A program made the position numbers and the translations under genes. DNA of 64,000 bases from Arenibacter sp. ARW7G5Y1. Its GTDB lineage: Bacteria; Bacteroidota; Bacteroidia; Flavobacteriales; Flavobacteriaceae. Below, in pieces: positions 51,364 to 61,219 of this stretch. The stretch spans positions 629,233 through 693,232 of the forward strand of contig NZ_QJJZ01000001.1 in NCBI RefSeq assembly GCF_003201775.1, read 5' to 3'. Every line of letters begins with the position of its first letter. The first letter of the stretch is position 1. The notes below the pieces were generated by a model. It saw only the letters and a list, made by a program, of their open reading frames with translations. It was not told the DNA's origin and did no database searches.

Positions 51364-52611
51364 ATGCAAAGGATGAATCTGTTTTTATTTATGTTGGCTG
51401 CATTAGCGCTGGTTTCTTGCAATGATGGGGATGATGGCAAATATGCGGAGTACTTGGTGGCCAAGCCCTTAACGATGGGCAAGGCCGAATTTAAACAGGC
51501 TATAGATATCATTGCTCCAATTCCCTTGGAGGAATCCGGTAAAATTTATGTCTATGGGGAATATATATTTGTCAACGAGAAATACAAAGGGGTGCATGTA
51601 ATTGATAATTCGGATCCAAGGGCTCCCAAAAAGATTGCATTTATAAAAATACCCGGCAACGTAGATGTTTCCGTAAAAGGCAATTACCTCTATGCCGATA
51701 GCATTATGGATTTGATCGTTCTGGATATTTCGGATATCAACAATATCAAAACAGTCAACCGCTTGGAAAATGTACTGAGGGACAATGTGGTTTTTCCTTT
51801 CGAGGCAGATATTTATGCGTGGCAGGATATAGATTATGAAAATGATATTGTGATAGGATGGGAAACTGTTAAGGAAAGAAGGTTGATAGAGGAAGTGCAG
51901 GTGGATTTTTCACGTGAATTTGATGTAATGCTTTCCAATGCCGCCCAAAATACGACCTCTACAGGCCAGGGAGGGTCCTTGGCGCGTTTTAAGATCGTAA
52001 ATGACTATTTATATGCCGTAGACAGTCACACTATCAATGTATTCAACATTCAGGATCTGGAAAACCCTAAGGATTTGGAAGACGTGTACGCCGGTTTCGA
52101 TATTGAAACTATTTTTAACAGGGGGGATCAATTGTTTTTGGGGAGTATGAGGGGGATGTATATATATGATATTTCCGCTCCGGCCACGCCTACATTGATT
52201 TCTGAATTTGAGCATGGTACGGCCTGTGATCCCGTGGTTGTTGATGGGGATTATGCCTATGTAACCTTGAGGGGCGGCAATATGTGCGGTGCTACGGAAA
52301 GTGGACTTTTTATAGTGGACATTTCAGATATCACCAAGCCCGAGTTGGTAAAGACCTATCCGATGGATGGCCCCTACGGCCTGGGGGTAAAGGATGAAAA
52401 ATTATTTGTGTGCGATGGGGCTTCTGGACTAAAGGTCTATGACAAGACCAATGTTCGGGACTTGGTACAGCTTAACCATTTTAAGGATGTAGAGACCTTT
52501 GACGTTATTCCTATGGAGGATAATTTATTGATGATAGGGAAGGAAATTATATATCAATATGAATATTTGGAAAATAAAATAAAGCTGATCAGCACATTTA
52601 AGCTTAATTAA
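51364..52611 (+). CDS. LVIVD-repeat beta-propeller lipoprotein
   Basis: This 415-residue lipoprotein (LVSC, Cys19) has repeated blocks of the LVIVD family: VHVIDNSDPRAPKKIAF, LIVLDISDINNIK, INVFNIQDLENPKDL, MYIYDISAPATPTLI and LFIVDISDITKPELV. These form a surface-exposed or periplasmic propeller. No enzymatic site is apparent. It stands alone between a divergent promoter region and a terminator. Confidence 0.83.
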   Translation: MQRMNLFLFMLAALALVSCNDGDDGKYAEYLVAKPLTMGKAEFKQAIDIIAPIPLEESGKIYVYGEYIFVNEKYKGVHVIDNSDPRAPKKIAFIKIPGNVDVSVKGNYLYADSIMDLIVLDISDINNIKTVNRLENVLRDNVVFPFEADIYAWQDIDYENDIVIGWETVKERRLIEEVQVDFSREFDVMLSNAAQNTTSTGQGGSLARFKIVNDYLYAVDSHTINVFNIQDLENPKDLEDVYAGFDIETIFNRGDQLFLGSMRGMYIYDISAPATPTLISEFEHGTACDPVVVDGDYAYVTLRGGNMCGATESGLFIVDISDITKPELVKTYPMDGPYGLGVKDEKLFVCDGASGLKVYDKTNVRDLVQLNHFKDVETFDVIPMEDNLLMIGKEIIYQYEYLENKIKLISTFKLN

Positions 52612-52628
52612 TGCTACCGAAATACTTT

Positions 52629-52656
52629 AAAACACCCCTTAAATTAGGGGTGTTTT
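52629..52656 (+). terminator. Intrinsic terminator after the LVIVD lipoprotein
   Basis: An 11-bp stem (AAAACACCCCT with AGGGGTGTTTT) closes a 6-nt loop and is followed by more T, 17 bp after the stop. Confidence 0.85.
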
Positions 52657-52728: not shown

Positions 52729-55218
52729 ATGGCAAAGAATTTAGTAATCGTAGAGTCCCCGGCTAAAGCAAAAACAATTGAAAAATTTTTAGGAAAGGAT
52801 TATAAGGTAGAGTCCAGTTTTGGACATATTGCCGATTTGCCTTCCAAGGAATTAGGAGTGGATGTGGAGAATAATTTTGCCCCTAAATATATTGTTGACA
52901 AAGATAAAAAGGCCCTTGTTAAAAAACTCAAGGATTTGGCGGACAAGGCAGATACCATATGGTTGGCCAGTGATGAGGACCGCGAAGGGGAGGCAATTTC
53001 CTGGCATTTGGCAGAGGAGTTGAAATTGGACAAGAATAAAACGAAGCGGATAGTTTTTAACTCTATAACCAAATCGGCCATTCAGAAGGCTATTGAGAAT
53101 CCTAGGGAAATTAATTATGATTTGGTGAACGCCCAACAAGCAAGGAGGGTTTTGGATAGATTGGTGGGGTATGAACTTTCTCCAGTCTTATGGAAAAAGA
53201 TTAAACCTGGATTATCTGCAGGTAGGGTTCAATCCGTTGCGGTGAGATTGATTGTGGAAAGGGAGCGGGAAATAGAAGCTTTTAAGCCGGAAGCGGCTTT
53301 TAGGATATCGGCCGAGTTCAAAACCAATGAAGGGAGTATATTCACGGCCAAATTAAATAAGACCTATGCCAGCCAGAAGGAGGCGGAAGCTTTCTTAAAG
53401 GAAAATATAGGAGCTAATTTTTCCGTTGCTTCCCTGGATAAGAAACCGGCCAAAAAATCGCCGGCGGCCCCATTTACAACTTCAACACTACAGCAGGAAG
53501 CTTCAAGGAAATTGTATTTTTCGGTTTCAAGGACCATGCAGGTGGCACAACGCTTGTACGAGGCGGGGTTAATTACCTATATGAGAACGGATAGTGTTAA
53601 CCTATCCAAGGATGCTATAGATGCGGCAAAGGATGCCATTATTAGTAACTACGGCAAGGAGTACAGTAAGGTTAGGAATTTTACCGGAAAATCCAAAGGA
53701 GCGCAGGAGGCCCATGAGGCCATCCGCCCTACGGAAATGACCAATCAGTCCCCTTCATTGGAAAGGGATCAATCCAAACTCTACGAGCTTATCTGGAAGC
53801 GTACCCTGGCCTCACAAATGAGTGATGCGGAATTGGAGCGTACCAATGTCAAAATAAAGACCAATACACATAAGGAAGAATTTACCGCTAACGGGGAGGT
53901 AATCAAATTTGATGGTTTCCTAAAGGTATATTTGGAAGGCACGGATGAAGAAGATATAAGTGAAGAACAGGAAGGGATGCTTCCCGCAATGAAGGAAGGC
54001 GAAAAGCTCATTAACAATTATATAACTGCAACAGAGCGTTTTTCCAGGGCACCTTATAGGTTTACGGAAGCCTCTTTGGTTAAAAAACTGGAGGAGCTTG
54101 GAATAGGAAGACCTTCTACCTATGCGCCTACAATTTCCACGATCCAGAATAGAGGCTATGTGGAAAAGGGCACCATAGAAGGCACCGAAAGAAATTATGT
54201 ACAGCTACTTCTGAAATCCGATAAACTGACCACTAAGGATTTAAAGGAAAATGTAGGCTCCGATAAGGGGAAAATGGTGCCTACGGATATAGGAATTATT
54301 GTAACCGATTTTTTGGTAGGACATTTTGAAACAATTTTGGATTATCATTTCACTGCCAAAGTGGAAGAGGATTTTGATGAGATCGCTTCAGGTGATGAGG
54401 ATTGGCAAAAGGTTTTGAAGGATTTTTATGGGGATTTTCACCCCAAGGTCTTGGATGTGGAGGAAAATGCGGACAGGGCCAGTGGAGAACGTATTTTGGG
54501 TACCGACCCTAAGTCGGGAAGACAGGTTTCGGTTAGGTTGGGCCGCTTTGGGCCTATGGTACAGGTGGGTACCGTAGATGATGAGGAAAAACCCTTGTTT
54601 GCAAGCCTGTTACCGGACCAGTCCTTAAATACCATTAGCTACGAAGAGGCTATGGACCTGTTTAAATTACCGCGAAAGCTAGGTGTTTATGAAGGGGAGG
54701 ACGTGGAGGCCAACGTGGGTCGCTTTGGTCCCTATATAAGGTTTGGTAAAAAATTTGTGTCCCTGGGCAAGGACGAAAATGCCATGGAGATAGATATGGA
54801 TCGGGCCGTGGAACTTATCAAGGAAAAACAAAAGGCCGATGCCCCTATTGCAATTTATGAGGATAAGGAGGTTACCAAAGGGGTTGGAAGATTTGGTCCA
54901 TTTATAAAATGGAACGGAATGTTTATTAATGTTAGTAAGAAATACGATTTTGATACCCTGTCAAAACAGGATATTGAAGAGATTATAGAGGCCAAAAAAC
55001 AAAAGGAAATTGATAAGTTGATCCAGGAATGGCCAGAAGAAGGTATACGAATAGAAAAAGCGAGATGGGGAAGGCATACCATAATTAAGGGCAAGGTTAA
55101 GGTGGAGGTCTCCAAAGATGTGGATGCCACTAAGATTTCCCTTAAAGCTGCTCAGGAATTAATTGAGAAAAAGACACCTAAGAAAAAAACAAAAGCAAAA
55201 CCTAAGGCTAAGAAATAA
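52729..55218 (+). CDS. topA: DNA topoisomerase I
   Basis: TopA relaxes negative supercoils. The 829-residue protein has an N-terminal Toprim domain (VIVESPAKAKTIEKFLG, then LASDEDREGEAI) and the active-site Tyr in LITYMRTDSVNLS. Instead of zinc fingers the C-terminus has several LGRFGPMV/VGRFGPYI/VGRFGPFI modules and a Lys-rich tail. Start and length are canonical for Bacteroidota. Its stop is 1 bp before the next gene. Confidence 0.96.
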   Translation: MAKNLVIVESPAKAKTIEKFLGKDYKVESSFGHIADLPSKELGVDVENNFAPKYIVDKDKKALVKKLKDLADKADTIWLASDEDREGEAISWHLAEELKLDKNKTKRIVFNSITKSAIQKAIENPREINYDLVNAQQARRVLDRLVGYELSPVLWKKIKPGLSAGRVQSVAVRLIVEREREIEAFKPEAAFRISAEFKTNEGSIFTAKLNKTYASQKEAEAFLKENIGANFSVASLDKKPAKKSPAAPFTTSTLQQEASRKLYFSVSRTMQVAQRLYEAGLITYMRTDSVNLSKDAIDAAKDAIISNYGKEYSKVRNFTGKSKGAQEAHEAIRPTEMTNQSPSLERDQSKLYELIWKRTLASQMSDAELERTNVKIKTNTHKEEFTANGEVIKFDGFLKVYLEGTDEEDISEEQEGMLPAMKEGEKLINNYITATERFSRAPYRFTEASLVKKLEELGIGRPSTYAPTISTIQNRGYVEKGTIEGTERNYVQLLLKSDKLTTKDLKENVGSDKGKMVPTDIGIIVTDFLVGHFETILDYHFTAKVEEDFDEIASGDEDWQKVLKDFYGDFHPKVLDVEENADRASGERILGTDPKSGRQVSVRLGRFGPMVQVGTVDDEEKPLFASLLPDQSLNTISYEEAMDLFKLPRKLGVYEGEDVEANVGRFGPYIRFGKKFVSLGKDENAMEIDMDRAVELIKEKQKADAPIAIYEDKEVTKGVGRFGPFIKWNGMFINVSKKYDFDTLSKQDIEEIIEAKKQKEIDKLIQEWPEEGIRIEKARWGRHTIIKGKVKVEVSKDVDATKISLKAAQELIEKKTPKKKTKAKPKAKK

Positions 55219-55219
55219 T

Positions 55220-56377
55220 ATGGCATTCGATTTTTTAGTACCCGTAAGTGACAGGGTATTGGCCCACTGCGAATTACTTCCGGCCCAAGCATTGGGGAAA
55301 CACGTTTACATGCACACTGCCCGGCATGGTCTTCCGGTGCTGGCCAATGTAAGTGTAGCTATACTAGGGGTCAATGAATCTAGAAATGCTTTTGAAAAAA
55401 AACCGGAGCGCCTGGATATTTCCGAAATAAGGCTACAATTGTATAATTTAATGATGGGGAACTGGAATTCCTCCATCGTGGATTTGGGAGATATAGAGGA
55501 AGGAGAGACCGTAGAGGACACTTATTTTGTGGTCAAGGAAATAGTTGCCGGCTTGCTGGAAGAAAATATTATCCCCATTGTCATTGGAGCAACCCAAGAC
55601 CTTACCTATCCTACATATAGGGCTTTTGACGGACTTAAGAATATGGTTAATCTGGTTTCCATAGATAGTAGGTTCGACTTTGGGATGGATGAAGACCTTA
55701 TTTCCTCCCATTCCTATATGAGTAAAATAATTACCGACAAGCCCAACAATCTTTTCAATTTCTCCAATATTGGTTATCAAAGTTATTTTAATTCCCAGGA
55801 AGAATTGGACCTTATGGAGCGACTTTTCTTTGATTCCTATAGGTTGGGCGAATTAATTTCCAATATTACCCTGGCAGAACCTGTACTAAGAAATGCCCAT
55901 GTGGTTAGTTTGGATGCCCGTGCCATACGTGCTGCGGATATAGGATATTCCCGAAACTTTTCTCCCAACGGTTTTAATGGAAGGGAAATATGTGCCATCG
56001 CAAGATATGCCGGAATTAGCGACAATGTATCCGTATTTGGGATTTACGAATGCGAGAATAGCAATCAGGCCTTTCAACTTGTTGCCCAAATAATATGGTA
56101 TTTTATAGAGGGCCTAAACTTTAGGATTAAAGAGACTCCCAATAGTAATAGTAACGACTTCACCAAGTATACCGTACCTACAGAAGATGAGTCCCTTGTC
56201 TTTTATAAAAGTCATCTCAGCGAAAGATGGTGGGTAGAGGTACCTTCAATTTTAACTTCACATACTAAAACAAATTCACCCGCGTTATTACCATGCACTG
56301 AGTTGGATTATCTGGATGCATGTAATCAAAATATTCCTGAGCGGTGGTTTAAAGCCTACAAAAAAGGGTTTAATTGA
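55220..56377 (+). CDS. Arginase-fold protein (formimidoylglutamase-like), probably non-catalytic
   Basis: This 385-residue protein has the arginase/ureohydrolase fold, but metal-ligand motifs are altered. GGxHx is IGATQD (Gln126 for His), DAHxD is DSRFD (Arg151 for His; Asp149 and Asp153 kept) and SxDxD is SLDAR (Asp232 kept, Arg234 for Asp). Three of six ligands are thus lost and a binuclear manganese site is unlikely. The start at 55220 is 1 bp after topA; gldK follows 116 bp later. I infer a structural or regulatory role, perhaps in gliding/type IX secretion; that is unproven. Confidence 0.8.
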   Translation: MAFDFLVPVSDRVLAHCELLPAQALGKHVYMHTARHGLPVLANVSVAILGVNESRNAFEKKPERLDISEIRLQLYNLMMGNWNSSIVDLGDIEEGETVEDTYFVVKEIVAGLLEENIIPIVIGATQDLTYPTYRAFDGLKNMVNLVSIDSRFDFGMDEDLISSHSYMSKIITDKPNNLFNFSNIGYQSYFNSQEELDLMERLFFDSYRLGELISNITLAEPVLRNAHVVSLDARAIRAADIGYSRNFSPNGFNGREICAIARYAGISDNVSVFGIYECENSNQAFQLVAQIIWYFIEGLNFRIKETPNSNSNDFTKYTVPTEDESLVFYKSHLSERWWVEVPSILTSHTKTNSPALLPCTELDYLDACNQNIPERWFKAYKKGFN

Positions 56378-56493: not shown

Positions 56494-57849
56494 ATGAAGA
56501 AGCTATTGTTGTCATCTATAGCATTTGTTTTTTTACTCTCAAGTTGTGGGTCCAAAACAAAAGGAGAGCTGGTCGGAGCTCAAGGAAAAAAGTGGTATCC
56601 CGAAAAACCCTATGGTATGGAATTGATCCCTAGAGGAGCATTCATCATGGGTAAGAGTGAGGAAGATCAGGCTAAGGTACTAAATGCCCCGACAAAGACT
56701 GTAACTGTTCGATCTTTCTACATGGATGATACCGAAATTACGAATAGTGAATATCGTCAATTTGTAGAATGGGTAAAGGATTCCATTGCAAGAACCCGTT
56801 TGGCTATTTTGGCCGATGAGTTGGGATTGGGACCTGAAGATGGTGGTATAGGGGATTATGCCTTTAAGGATGCCGATACTACAAGATTGTCTGCCTACGA
56901 TAAGTACATGCTGAACAATTATGCAGGTATGGGAGAAACAGGCTACGAAGGCAGGGCATTGGACAGGAAACAAGACCTAATTTGGGATACTTCCAAATAT
57001 CCGGATGAGTATTATGCCGAGGTAATGGATTCATTGTATATCTCTCAGGAGGAATCCTATAATGGCCAACGTCATATAGATGTAACCAAATTGAAATACA
57101 AATATACCTGGATGGATATTGAGGCTGCGGCCCGTGCCAAAAAGGGGAGTAGAAAAGATTTCATAAAACAGGAAGAATTGGAAATATATCCGGATACTAC
57201 GGTATGGATAAAAGATTTTTCATATTCTTATAATGAACCAATGCACAACGATTACTTCTGGCATGATGCCTATAGTGATTATCCTGTTGTTGGGGTTACG
57301 TGGCAACAGGCCCAGGCTTTTTGTAACTGGAGAACAAAATTCAAGAACGACGATCAAAAAAGTAGGGGCAAGCAATTTGTCAACCGCTTTAGATTGCCAA
57401 CAGAAGCGGAATGGGAATATGCGGCCAGAGGGGGTATAGAAGGTGGTACATACCCATGGGGTGGTCCTTATGTGATCAGCGATACGGGTTGTTTTATGGC
57501 CAACTTTAAACCACAGCGTGGGGATTATGCGGCGGATCAAGCGTTGTACACGGTAGAGGCCAAAGCCTATGAGCCCAACGATTATAACCTTTATAATATG
57601 GCGGGTAACGTTTCCGAATGGACCAATAGTAGCTATGACCCAAATTCATATGAATATGTGTCTACCATGAACCCAAATGCGGAATCTACCCAAAATGCAA
57701 GAAAAGTTATTAGAGGTGGATCTTGGAAAGATGTTGCTTATTTCCTACAGGTAAGTACCAGGGATTATGAATACCAGGATTCGGCACGTAGTTATATCGG
57801 TTTTAGAACCGTACAGGATTACATGGGAGAGGAAGACTCTACCAATTAG
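56494..57849 (+). CDS. gldK: Gliding motility / type IX secretion lipoprotein GldK
   Basis: GldK (PorK) forms the periplasmic ring of the type IX secretion system with GldN. The 451-residue lipoprotein (LSSC, Cys18) has a formylglycine-generating-enzyme-like (SUMF1) fold: IPRGAFIMG, MDDTEITNSEYRQFV, VVGVTWQQAQAFCNW, RLPTEAEWEYAARGG, NLYNMAGNVSEWT and VIRGGSW. An insertion around residues 105-235 is typical for GldK. It is first of four adjacent gld genes. Confidence 0.96.
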   Translation: MKKLLLSSIAFVFLLSSCGSKTKGELVGAQGKKWYPEKPYGMELIPRGAFIMGKSEEDQAKVLNAPTKTVTVRSFYMDDTEITNSEYRQFVEWVKDSIARTRLAILADELGLGPEDGGIGDYAFKDADTTRLSAYDKYMLNNYAGMGETGYEGRALDRKQDLIWDTSKYPDEYYAEVMDSLYISQEESYNGQRHIDVTKLKYKYTWMDIEAAARAKKGSRKDFIKQEELEIYPDTTVWIKDFSYSYNEPMHNDYFWHDAYSDYPVVGVTWQQAQAFCNWRTKFKNDDQKSRGKQFVNRFRLPTEAEWEYAARGGIEGGTYPWGGPYVISDTGCFMANFKPQRGDYAADQALYTVEAKAYEPNDYNLYNMAGNVSEWTNSSYDPNSYEYVSTMNPNAESTQNARKVIRGGSWKDVAYFLQVSTRDYEYQDSARSYIGFRTVQDYMGEEDSTN

Positions 57850-57935: not shown

Positions 57936-58586
57936 ATGGCACAGTCAAAATCAACTAAGAAATTATTTAACATGGCCTATGGGCTTGGTGCATCTGTAGT
58001 AATTATAGGAGCATTATTCAAGATCCTTCACTGGCAATTTGGCCCACTTACGGGAGGATTGTTATTGGCAATCGGACTTATTACCGAGGCATTAATTTTT
58101 GCTATCAGTGCATTTGAACCAGTAGATGACGAGTACGATTGGTCATTGGTATACCCAGAATTAAACGGAGGTGCTTCTTCGGGAAAATCAAATTCCAAAG
58201 CTGAAATAAAGGAGGCAGAAGCTTCTTTGTCCAAAAAATTGGATGAATTGTTAAAAGAAGCCGGTGTAGATGCCAGCCTTATGGAAAGTCTTGGATCTAG
58301 CATTAGAAACTTTGAAGGTGCAGCCAAGGGTATAGCTCCAACTGTTGATGCTATGGAATCTACCAAAAAGTATTCCGATGAAATGGTACAAGCTGCCGCT
58401 CAAATGGAATCTTTGAACAGTCTTTACAAAGTACAATTGGAAAGCGCAAGCAGACAAGCATCCATCAATGAGGAAGTAGTACAGAATTCAAGTGCCCTTA
58501 AAGAGCAGATGGAGTCTTTGGCAACCAACCTTTCTTCTTTGAACGGAGTATACGGTGGTATGTTATCTGCAATGAATAGAAACTAA
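57936..58586 (+). CDS. gldL: Gliding motility / type IX secretion motor protein GldL
   Basis: GldL is the proton-channel stator part of the GldLM motor in the inner membrane. The 216-residue protein has two N-terminal helices (about residues 10-30 and 36-58), including the conserved FKILHWQFGP with buried polar residues and an ITEALIF with the membrane Glu, followed by a cytoplasmic coiled-coil region. It lies 86 bp after gldK. Confidence 0.95.
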   Translation: MAQSKSTKKLFNMAYGLGASVVIIGALFKILHWQFGPLTGGLLLAIGLITEALIFAISAFEPVDDEYDWSLVYPELNGGASSGKSNSKAEIKEAEASLSKKLDELLKEAGVDASLMESLGSSIRNFEGAAKGIAPTVDAMESTKKYSDEMVQAAAQMESLNSLYKVQLESASRQASINEEVVQNSSALKEQMESLATNLSSLNGVYGGMLSAMNRN

Positions 58587-58644: not shown

Positions 58645-60213
58645 ATGGCAGGAGGAAAAGCAACACCACGTCAGAAGATGATCAACCTAATGTACTTGAT
58701 CTTCATCGCGATGTTGGCCTTAAATATGGGAAAAGAAGTTCTATCGGCTTTCGGTCTTATGAACGAAAAGTTAGAAGCTTCTAACATAAAAACCACGGAA
58801 AACAATATGGCTTTCCTAAGTGGTCTTGAAACTAAAGCATCTGAAAATGCTGAAAAATTTGGCCCTCTTTTGGAGGATGCCAAGAAAATAAAGGAATTGT
58901 CTGCAGAGTATTACCAATATTTGGAAAACTTGAAAAAGGAGATGATGGCCGATGTTGAGGATCCTAAAGATTATCAAGTAATGGACAAGACCGATTATTT
59001 GGATCAGCGTTTTTTCCAGGGAGACCAACTTGGTGCGGATGGAAAAGAGTTTTTGGACCGCTTGGTCAACTATCGTACTCAGATTACCGCTGTAATGCCT
59101 AAAGAATTGGAGTCTGTAAAGTCTTCCGTAAAATCTAGGTTCGAAACCGGTGATGAGAATGGCAAGGTTGAAAAGAGGGACGGGACCAAGCAAGATTGGT
59201 TAAACTATAACTTTGAAGGATATCCTTTGGTAGCCTCCTTAACCAAGATTACTTCGCTTCAGGCAGACGTAAAAGCTACTGAGGAAGATGCCTTAAAGGC
59301 AATGTTGCAAGGTCAGTTGAGCAGTGAGGTTTCCATGACCAATTATACCACTTTGTTGGAGCAGGAAAAATCTGCTTTTTATGCAGGTGAAAAATTTGCA
59401 GGAAATATTGTGTTGGGTCGTAAAGATGCCACTACAAAACCTAATGAAGTTAACTTGACCCTAGATGGAAGAAAGTTAAGTGAAGGAACCGATTATGTAA
59501 TCGAGGACGGTAAGGTAAGGTTGACCGTAAGTGCTGGAAGTGCTGGTGATCATAAGATTGAAGGTAACTTGGTGTTTATGCAGGATGGAGAGCGTACAGA
59601 AGTGCCAGTATCCTCTACATTTGCCACTATTACCAAACCAAATGCCGCAGTTATTTCAGCTGATAAGATGAACGTTGTTTATCGTGGTGTTTCCAATCCT
59701 ATAACCATTTCCATTCCTGGTATTCCGGATAATAATGTTACTGCATCCGCTCCAGGGCTTAGTAAGCAAAGTGGAAGTAAATACGCTATGAATCCTGGTA
59801 AAGGAAGAACGGTTTCCATTACTGCTTCAGGTAAGTTGCCCGATGGACAAATGATCAAAACTTCTTCTGAGTTCAGAATTAAGGATATTCCAAGACCTTC
59901 GGGATCTGTAAGAGGAGAATCCGGAAGTGCTAGAATGGGTAAAAACAACTTGGAGATCTCTACTATTGGAGCTTTGTTGGAAGACTTTGATTTTGACCTT
60001 AACCTTGCGGTTAGTGGATTCAAATTTAAAGTGCCAGGACAGCCAACTGTAGATGTAAAAGGTAACAAATTGGATGCTAGAGCCAAGTCTGCCCTTAAAA
60101 GAGCAAGCCGTGGTGATGCCGTTCAGATTTTTGATATCGAAGCTTATATTACAAACAATAAAAGCTATAAGCTTAAAAAGGTATCTCCTGTTGTTGTGGA
60201 GATAACAAACTAG
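58645..60213 (+). CDS. gldM: Gliding motility / type IX secretion motor protein GldM
   Basis: GldM spans the periplasm and turns with the GldL motor to drive secretion and gliding. The 522-residue protein has a single N-terminal helix (MINLMYLIFIAMLALNMG, residues 12-29, with Glu31 close by) and long periplasmic domains D1 to D4 with beta-strand content at the C-terminus. Size and start are normal. Confidence 0.95.
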   Translation: MAGGKATPRQKMINLMYLIFIAMLALNMGKEVLSAFGLMNEKLEASNIKTTENNMAFLSGLETKASENAEKFGPLLEDAKKIKELSAEYYQYLENLKKEMMADVEDPKDYQVMDKTDYLDQRFFQGDQLGADGKEFLDRLVNYRTQITAVMPKELESVKSSVKSRFETGDENGKVEKRDGTKQDWLNYNFEGYPLVASLTKITSLQADVKATEEDALKAMLQGQLSSEVSMTNYTTLLEQEKSAFYAGEKFAGNIVLGRKDATTKPNEVNLTLDGRKLSEGTDYVIEDGKVRLTVSAGSAGDHKIEGNLVFMQDGERTEVPVSSTFATITKPNAAVISADKMNVVYRGVSNPITISIPGIPDNNVTASAPGLSKQSGSKYAMNPGKGRTVSITASGKLPDGQMIKTSSEFRIKDIPRPSGSVRGESGSARMGKNNLEISTIGALLEDFDFDLNLAVSGFKFKVPGQPTVDVKGNKLDARAKSALKRASRGDAVQIFDIEAYITNNKSYKLKKVSPVVVEITN

Positions 60214-60316: not shown

Positions 60317-61219
60317 ATGAATTGGAAAAATGTTTTATTAATTGGAGTAGTGGTCCTGTTGCCATTGTCTATTTCCGCCCAGGCAAATATTTTAAATGCC
60401 AAATTACCGGAAGAGATAGGTAAGAAGACCCAGGCGCAGATCGAGAAAGATAATGATGCTCCTTTACCTTACGCCTATGTGGACGACAGGGATATTCTCT
60501 GGTCCAAAACCGTTTGGGAGGTAATCGATTTGGACGAGCGTGTTAACTTTCCACTCTATTATCCTTTGGACACCATTGATATAGGCCCGGATAGAAGGTC
60601 CTTATACGATGTGTTGATCAAAAACATTAAAAATGGAAAATTGGAGGATGTTTATGTGGACTCCTATTTTACCGAAAAAAGAAAGTTTAGCGATTTGGCT
60701 GCAACTTTGCAGAAAGTGGATACAACAGATTACGGATATGAGCAATATAATGCCGGGGAGCCTATTTCTCCAGAATATATTAACCGTAGGAACCTTACCG
60801 CTGCCGATTTGGAGGAGTACCTTATTAAAGGAATATGGTATTTCGATAAAAGATTGGGCGAATTAAAATACCGATTGTTGGGTATTGCACCTGTTGCTCC
60901 GGATGTTAACTTCATAGATGATGAGTCTATGGATTTGGCAGAGGCAAAAGTTCCATTGTTCTGGGTTTGGTATCCTAGTGCAAGACAAATATTACATGAA
61001 GCCAAAGTGTTTAACCAACGTAATTCCGCACAGCCTATTTCTTTTGATATGTTGCTGAACGCAAGAAGATTCAATGCAACGATCTACAAAGAGGATAACG
61101 TGCATGGAGACCGTGAGGTTAAGGACTATATAGCTGATAATGCCTTGTTTCAATTATTGGAATCCAAACGAATTAAGGAGGTTATCCGAGATAGGGAACA
61201 AGATATGTGGGCCTACTAG
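60317..61219 (+). CDS. gldN: Gliding motility / type IX secretion protein GldN
   Basis: GldN (PorN) partners GldK in the periplasmic ring and contacts GldM. The 300-residue protein has a signal peptide (about residues 1-22) and the family sequences DDRDILWSKTVWEVIDL, ERVNFPLYYP, VPLFWVWYPSAR and SFDMLLNARRF. It is last in the cluster, 103 bp after gldM, and is followed by a perfect hairpin terminator. Confidence 0.95.
   Translation: MNWKNVLLIGVVVLLPLSISAQANILNAKLPEEIGKKTQAQIEKDNDAPLPYAYVDDRDILWSKTVWEVIDLDERVNFPLYYPLDTIDIGPDRRSLYDVLIKNIKNGKLEDVYVDSYFTEKRKFSDLAATLQKVDTTDYGYEQYNAGEPISPEYINRRNLTAADLEEYLIKGIWYFDKRLGELKYRLLGIAPVAPDVNFIDDESMDLAEAKVPLFWVWYPSARQILHEAKVFNQRNSAQPISFDMLLNARRFNATIYKEDNVHGDREVKDYIADNALFQLLESKRIKEVIRDREQDMWAY

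Follow-up and report, generated by a model that had tools for sequence, protein, structure and literature searches.

What role does an arginase-like protein play between the gene for DNA topoisomerase I and the core genes of gliding and type IX secretion? The question is raised by a window of 64,000 nucleotides from Arenibacter sp. ARW7G5Y1, in which the ORF coordinates agree with a preliminary description that had put such a gene directly between topA (1 bp away) and gldKLMN (116 bp away) (Table 1). Across a whole phylum, the type IX secretion system (T9SS) drives both secretion and gliding, and to our knowledge little is known about the cytoplasmic control of its motor. Our results suggest that a pseudo-ureohydrolase long kept beside T9SS and gliding genes in many lineages is an overlooked helper of this rotary motor.

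Table 1. Features of the topA–gldN locus, numbered from the first nucleotide of the window.
Feature	Position	Strand	Evidence or conservation
Terminator-like hairpin and T-run, 5' of topA	52629..52656	+	consensus scan only
topA, DNA topoisomerase I	52729..55218	+	TIGR01051, 716.9 bits; PF01131
Pseudo-ureohydrolase (P0001), 385 aa	55220..56377	+	ORF with ATG start
Codon Q126, metal ligand 1	55595..55597	+	homologue rows (224): 175 Q, 28 H, 13 N; outgroup rows (17): 10 H, 7 N
Codon D149, retained ligand	55664..55666	+	D in 208/224 homologue rows
Codon R151, metal ligand 3	55670..55672	+	H in 6/224 homologue rows versus 17/17 outgroup rows
Codon D153, retained ligand	55676..55678	+	D in 202/224 homologue rows
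Codon D232, retained ligand	55913..55915	+	D in 212/224 homologue rows
Codon R234, metal ligand 6	55919..55921	+	D in 8/224 homologue rows, none with H at site 3; outgroup D in 17/17
C-terminal module, residues 304-385, not in outgroup	56129..56374	+	ureohydrolase fold matches listed end at residues 297-307
Codons W337-W338 of RWW motif	56228..56233	+	W337 in 223/224, W338 in 216/224 rows
Codon C359	56294..56296	+	C in 223/224 rows
gldK, T9SS ring lipoprotein	56494..57849	+	TIGR03525, 614.3 bits
gldL, T9SS motor	57936..58586	+	TIGR03513, 232.4 bits
gldM, T9SS motor	58645..60213	+	TIGR03517, 443.4 bits
gldN, T9SS ring	60317..61219	+	TIGR03523, 269.6 bits

A consensus scan found seven terminator-like sites on the two strands against a mean of 4.3 in shuffled sequences, and on the plus strand up to position 56600 it listed none besides the hairpin 5' of topA. 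Sigma-70-type promoter matches were no commoner than in shuffles (9 versus 9.9), and this type of scan found no strong promoter in the interval between the pseudo-ureohydrolase gene and gldK. On the other side of topA, 5' of it, a gene of 415 aa encodes LVIVD repeats (51364-52611); it is close to topA in many, not all, of the close relatives listed.

The ureohydrolase layout and well-kept fold that had been read from the sequence are borne out by profile and structure comparisons. The protein matches PF00491 (Arginase) with 28.4 bits, above the gathering score of 22, and 43 of 47 diverse family members (A1) match it at E <= 0.01. An AF2 model built with 60 close homologues has a mean pLDDT of 79.3 and a pTM of 0.85, and in VIA its residues 20-303 superpose on Trypanosoma cruzi 2a0m with Z 29.9 and rmsd 2.5 over 266 residues; 4mxr, which is named formiminoglutamase, gives the same Z of 29.9. 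Searched against the PDB, the profile of the 47 diverse members finds the Bacillus formimidoylglutamase 3m1r (2.1e-16, positions 46-302), and Foldseek ranks 1-5 for the predicted model are metformin hydrolase chains. A ureohydrolase fold is thereby confirmed for the protein as modelled and, because of the 2a0m superposition and the 3m1r profile match, it has the HutG fold as far as about residue 303. The family is related to HutG, and its ancestor was a HutG-like ureohydrolase. A quick tree of 91 proteins puts it on one side of a branch of length 1.78 with SH-aLRT 100, the other side consisting of 18 outgroup proteins that include the HutG paralogue from the same genome. Close to home, the protein is 97-98% identical to its counterparts in five Arenibacter records.

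The metal site is where the family departs from its relatives. Arginase I binds Mn_A through H101, D124, D128, and D232 and Mn_B through H126, D124, D232, and D234; we take ligand sites 3 and 6 to serve the second ion alone and the other sites to hold or share the first. At the six positions, the first four of which agree with an alignment to agmatine ureohydrolase 3pzl, the Arenibacter protein reads Q, D, R, D, D, R, so that the replacement of three of six ligands claimed at the outset (Q126, R151, R234) stands. Our alignment comprises 224 homologue rows and 17 outgroup rows, which are rows rather than species: 80 of the 224 are the nearest relatives among the matches listed, some represent the same gene from two collections (L003 and L036, by coordinates), L002 was left out, and the outgroup rows come from 17 of 21 loci, L173, L177, L181, and L182 having been left out for want of a tblastn match. 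The ligand set of binuclear ureohydrolases (H/N, D, H, D, D, D) is complete in none of the 224 homologue rows, and H at site 3 occurs together with D at site 6 in 0/224 of them versus 17/17 outgroup rows. Several outgroup or phylum-level ureohydrolase matches (L175, L178, L183, L185, and others; genomes G061, G089, G187, G159, G262, and others) cross one stop codon, possibly where a match overruns the end of the gene.

The proposed fixation of the Q/R/R substitutions holds only near Arenibacter, where 84 of 86 near-relative rows have the triad and the remaining two have K151; beyond them the triad as such is absent. Across the class, most members have Q, H, or N at site 1, and there is free variation at positions 151 and 234. 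When the 385 positions were ranked by conservation over 72 representatives at <60% identity, a set free of the redundancy of the 224 rows, these two came 264th and 228th. Of the representatives, 66 retain D149, 62 retain D153, and 67 retain D232, and 67 have Q/H/N at site 1. Because sites 3 and 6 never carry H and D together, the Mn_B site has been lost in the family; this loss is general, and with it the binuclear site is gone. Much of the Mn_A half-site remains and, since the three Asp ligands persist in most rows, the protein may still bind a single metal. Thus, of the preliminary picture of a conserved, inactive arginase-like protein, the conservation, the ureohydrolase fold, and the incomplete metal site hold up, and a complete loss of metal is not supported. 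Two families have lost more of the site. Almost none of it survives in f2 (NSxSND), and erosion is also seen in f5 (PTH-TG in L169, -NSEDN in L168); both retain W293. C359 is also retained in f2, which reads LWY for RWW, and together with RWW in f5 loci L167-L169. In L167, L168, and L170 of f5, the N-terminal half of the homologue is without the metal-site region.

Much of the constraint on the protein now lies away from the old active site. The representatives have a median of 86 residues beyond position 300, versus 0-8 in the 17 outgroup rows, and the RWW...C..DY residues of this C-terminal module are among the most conserved in the family. Over the 224 homologue rows, W293 is present in 224, R224 and E220 in 223 each, Y364 in 218, and C258 in 214; the polar residues R224, E220, Q187, D363, and C359 are very strongly conserved. 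The gene is under strong purifying selection, with dN/dS of 0.014-0.037 against five close Arenibacter relatives, compared with a range of 0.009-0.070 for topA and gldK-N; against two more distant relatives the value is 0.053 in one case and undefined in the other, where dS is saturated. These ratios rule out a decaying pseudogene. One possible split copy was seen in G728, where the homologue consists of two overlapping ORFs (262 and 128 aa; L255:10124-11295) flanked by topA and porP, perhaps through a frameshift or a split gene.

Searches with the module alone found no counterpart: the best Pfam E values were 0.15 and 0.23 for two queries, no PDB sequence matched up to E 1, and structure searches with a model of pLDDT only 66 gave a best E of 0.28 in Foldseek and a best Z of 3.7 in VIA. 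The weak VIA rows include small beta-sheet-plus-helix domains, among them the integrase arm-binding domains 3rmp and 3jtz (Z 3.4 and 3.2, from the same model), and with Z under 4 we build nothing on them. The highest 19-residue hydropathy of the whole protein is 1.52, and 1.21 near the N-terminus; because there is no signal-like hydrophobic stretch, the protein is probably cytoplasmic.

In regard to gene order, a synteny limited to one species is ruled out, since topA, the pseudo-ureohydrolase gene, and gldK stand in this order in 121/121 loci of the window's family and linkage extends, in many cases with porP in between, to other families. The window's family (f1) we take to be Flavobacteriaceae from the shared records, from G130 being Zeaxanthinibacter, and from recall; the 121 loci are 30 short ones, the 80 nearest relatives among those listed, and 11 longer ones, with some genomes in two sets. 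Across the class sample, the gene lies directly 5' of gldK on the same strand in 59 of 72 genomes, the 72 being those for which both genes were among the 150 top rows of the respective search; 46 of the 59 are outside the window's family and have a spacer of 1.2-1.5 kb (2.4 kb in one). Linkage to gldK was seen in 56/105 carriers of a second order, across a spacer of 1.06-2.07 kb, and this is a lower bound because 48 of the 49 others have the two genes on different contigs. Linkage was called only where both genes share a contig and strand, which makes a fragmented genome count as unlinked; in one of these, G401, the contig ends after porP.

Outside the window's family, the spacer measures 1.1-1.7 kb except in two cases (2.1 and 2.4 kb), and where read its gene is PorP/SprF (TIGR03519, 212 bits in L123), named by NCBIfam in L123 and L167 and by tblastn elsewhere. 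In 32 linked loci (L192-L223), porP is in place in 32/32 by tblastn and topA is upstream in 30/32; these loci were picked for linkage and therefore show the identity of the spacer rather than the frequency of linkage. Among nine loci chosen without known linkage (L224-L232), porP is next in seven. The linked order outside Flavobacteriaceae is topA-X-porP-gldKLMN, X being the pseudo-ureohydrolase, and most likely the ancestral order was topA–pseudo-ureohydrolase–porP–gldK–gldL–gldM–gldN, from which porP was lost in Flavobacteriaceae.

In the loci read, conservation of order does not extend past gldN. On the opposite flank, topA itself is conserved, as are, where enough was read, several opposite-strand genes past it; part of the linkage is therefore explained by slow decay of gene order. 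The homologue lies away from gldK in families f3, f4, f8, f9, and others; in f2 topA is within about 4 kb in 6/7 loci (adjoining in L160 and L164, not seen in L161), with no gldK nearby. In three f5 loci (L167, L168, L170), the homologue lies opposite murF and a gene for a GldJ/GldK-like lipoprotein, and hence near other T9SS genes, with porP next in L167 and L168; close by is an unnamed ORF of about 1250 aa. Among ten f3 loci, eight (L124:10106-13678, L125-L131) have one to three genes of a single cluster within three genes downstream on the same strand, and the two such genes scanned in L124 encode TlpA/ResA-like thiol-disulfide oxidoreductases.

The presence of the gene follows that of GldK. 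Of the 395 genomes in the class sample, the family profile matches 370 at E <= 0.001, or 366 carriers without four matches of about 1e-4 (G440, G551, G641, G664), and GldK is matched in 387 at E <= 1e-20, 367 of them above its cut-off. The gene is missing from 24 of the 387 GldK-bearing genomes by this loose threshold, several of the 24 being incomplete; among the eight genomes with no GldK match, five are without it and three have it (G543, G617, G729), each of these in at least 340 contigs. In the second order, 105 of 149 genomes carry the gene at E < 1e-20, ten weaker matches (E above 1e-20) having been set aside as other ureohydrolases (G744, G767, G770, G783, G806, G815, G819, G664, G828, G866). 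The association with gliding and T9SS genes noted earlier extends to co-occurrence: GldK is present in 105/105 carriers and the gene in 0/12 GldK-less genomes, three of which (G806, G815, G828) have weak matches that were set aside. Fisher tests give p 1.3e-7 (105 carriers versus the 12 GldK-less genomes of the second order) and 7e-5 with genomes treated as independent, though they are not, and the class and order samples partly overlap (e.g., G347, G588, G609, G230).

Conversely, GldK does not strictly predict the gene, which is missing from 32 of 137 GldK-bearing genomes of the second order. Together with the 24/387 of the class sample, this means that T9SS can do without it, and the genomes of loci L247-L250, each with a full porP-gldK-N, are examples. 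As expected of a T9SS component, the gene is linked to the core genes across lineages, if not in all of them; it is not present in all T9SS genomes. Nor is gliding a clean predictor, because GldJ (E <= 1e-60) is found in 14/22 carriers and 5/22 noncarriers among hand-picked genomes (Fisher p 0.014). GldB matches 41 of these 44 genomes, 19 above its cut-off. Eight genomes (G049, G076, G072, G190, G249, G371, G395, G464) have GldK-like proteins of 340-403 aa near the cut-off, with the C-terminal half as the best stretch and no GldJ match at 1e-60; they may belong to a shorter variant of T9SS.

How else might such a protein be explained? Formimidoylglutamases are its best NCBIfam match and the best PDB match of the family profile, yet the preliminary description was right that this label would be wrong, and we reject the identity: the protein can hardly be an ordinary formimidoylglutamase when it scores 36.8 bits on TIGR01227 (formimidoylglutamase HutG) against a cut-off of 229.15, its metal site is incomplete, and the tree divides its family from the outgroup proteins. 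Furthermore, the genome has a separate, canonical HutG on contig C10 that scores 294.8 bits (HutG was tested for the own-genome paralogue only) and has the GGGHD, DAHFD, and DLD motifs. Its gene (G000:C10, L252:6778-7749, plus strand) lies 4.7 kb downstream of hutU, encoding urocanate hydratase (L252:68-2080), on the same strand; the interval holds three ORFs, of which one of 818 aa matches the PilW-type TIGR02521 below cut-off. The histidine-degradation context is thus at the other copy, and topA and gldKLMN are at this one. With HutG (3m1r, 1xfk, 2a0m/4mxr) the family shares the ureohydrolase fold over residues 20-303, but it is without the second-metal ligands and the hut context and has a C-terminal module of about 86 residues. 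The presence of an active-type HutG also raises the idea that the protein is an inactive subunit, assembled into a hetero-oligomer with an active ureohydrolase from its own cell. MetCb offers the precedent: according to PMC11271267, five of its six ligands are changed (three to five are lost in its clade) and either subunit is inactive by itself, so by analogy pseudo-ureohydrolases can have real functions. As described in PMC11271267 and PMC11399263, MetCb and MefH beta resemble the present protein in being pseudo-ureohydrolases with lost metal ligands; MetCb differs in being encoded with the active paralogue it works with, and the present family in spanning a class and having its own C-terminal module. 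A Pfam scan of eight neighbouring proteins found no active ureohydrolase, the active paralogue is unpaired on another contig, and some carriers, such as G053, G068, G397, and G400, have only one family-profile match with at most four candidates scored per genome. We therefore reject such a pairing as very improbable.

Two further readings deserve more weight, and we regard each as unlikely rather than negligible. The protein could still be catalytic, with changed chemistry on some other substrate, acting either through a mononuclear site formed by D149, D153, D232, and Q/H/N126 or through a new site at C359, W337, Y364, and R224. The retention of the Asp ligands and of Q/H/N at site 1 in most representatives favors this, as does the very strong conservation of polar residues set out above, but f2 and f5 members that are without most of the first site still have W293, and position 277, which we take to be the substrate glutamate, is E in only 46 of 72 representatives versus 17/17 outgroup rows. 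It is similarly doubtful that the protein is a housekeeping factor tied to topA or to general metabolism, for which nearness to gldKLMN would be an inherited passenger arrangement. Consistent with this notion, topA is upstream in all window-family loci and in nearly all linked loci of other families, f2 keeps topA near without gldK, and the opposite-strand genes past topA are partly conserved. Against it, order conservation ends after gldN, and the gene is missing from all 12 GldK-less genomes of the second order, which may have lost much else, and from five of the eight in the class sample, the other three being fragmented.

On balance, we consider it probable that the protein is a cytoplasmic accessory of T9SS and gliding that belongs to the core neighbourhood of Bacteroidia, is not a ureohydrolase, and has lost Mn_B and gained a C-terminal module. 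The linkage and the co-occurrence with GldK are direct observations, and the two together make the link to T9SS; an accessory role and an absence of catalysis we infer. In many families the gene is the same-strand upstream neighbour of the core locus porP-gldKLMN/porPKLMN, but it is missing from many T9SS genomes, including those of L247-L250. A HutG-like ureohydrolase ancestor lost its Mn_B site, retained much of the Mn_A half-site, and gained the C-terminal module, which would be the working surface. The inert fold might hold one metal ion or a small ligand of guanidino or formimino type, and the module, with W293, R224, and E220, may form a binding face for a partner. Such a partner could sit on the GldL-GldM motor's cytoplasmic side or help to make the products of porP-gldKLMN; GldL-GldM is a guess from the cellular side and the gene neighbourhood. 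A more specific version, which we put forward tentatively as a possibility, makes the protein an ancestral cytoplasmic component of T9SS and gliding: a dead ureohydrolase encoded 5' of porP-gldKLMN in the ancestor of Bacteroidia, in which the half-site would sense a metal or metabolite and RWW...C..DY would gate or assemble GldL-GldM.

Our findings fit into a broader picture in which pseudo-ureohydrolases are already known; the added module, the class-wide spread, and the tie to T9SS were not found in the literature searched. That search, which covered only a minority of subscription journals, turned up among the papers listed no report tying the gene to T9SS or naming it as a T9SS part, and there is a real chance that it is a missing one. 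Because it is kept beside the T9SS core in many families and is rarely found without these genes in our samples, it is a specific target that could be knocked out cheaply. The family is further an instance, spread across a class, of an enzyme fold put to new use without its chemistry, with a conserved surface that can be named residue by residue. Should the role be confirmed, naming such proteins formimidoylglutamases would mislead predictions of metabolic pathways.
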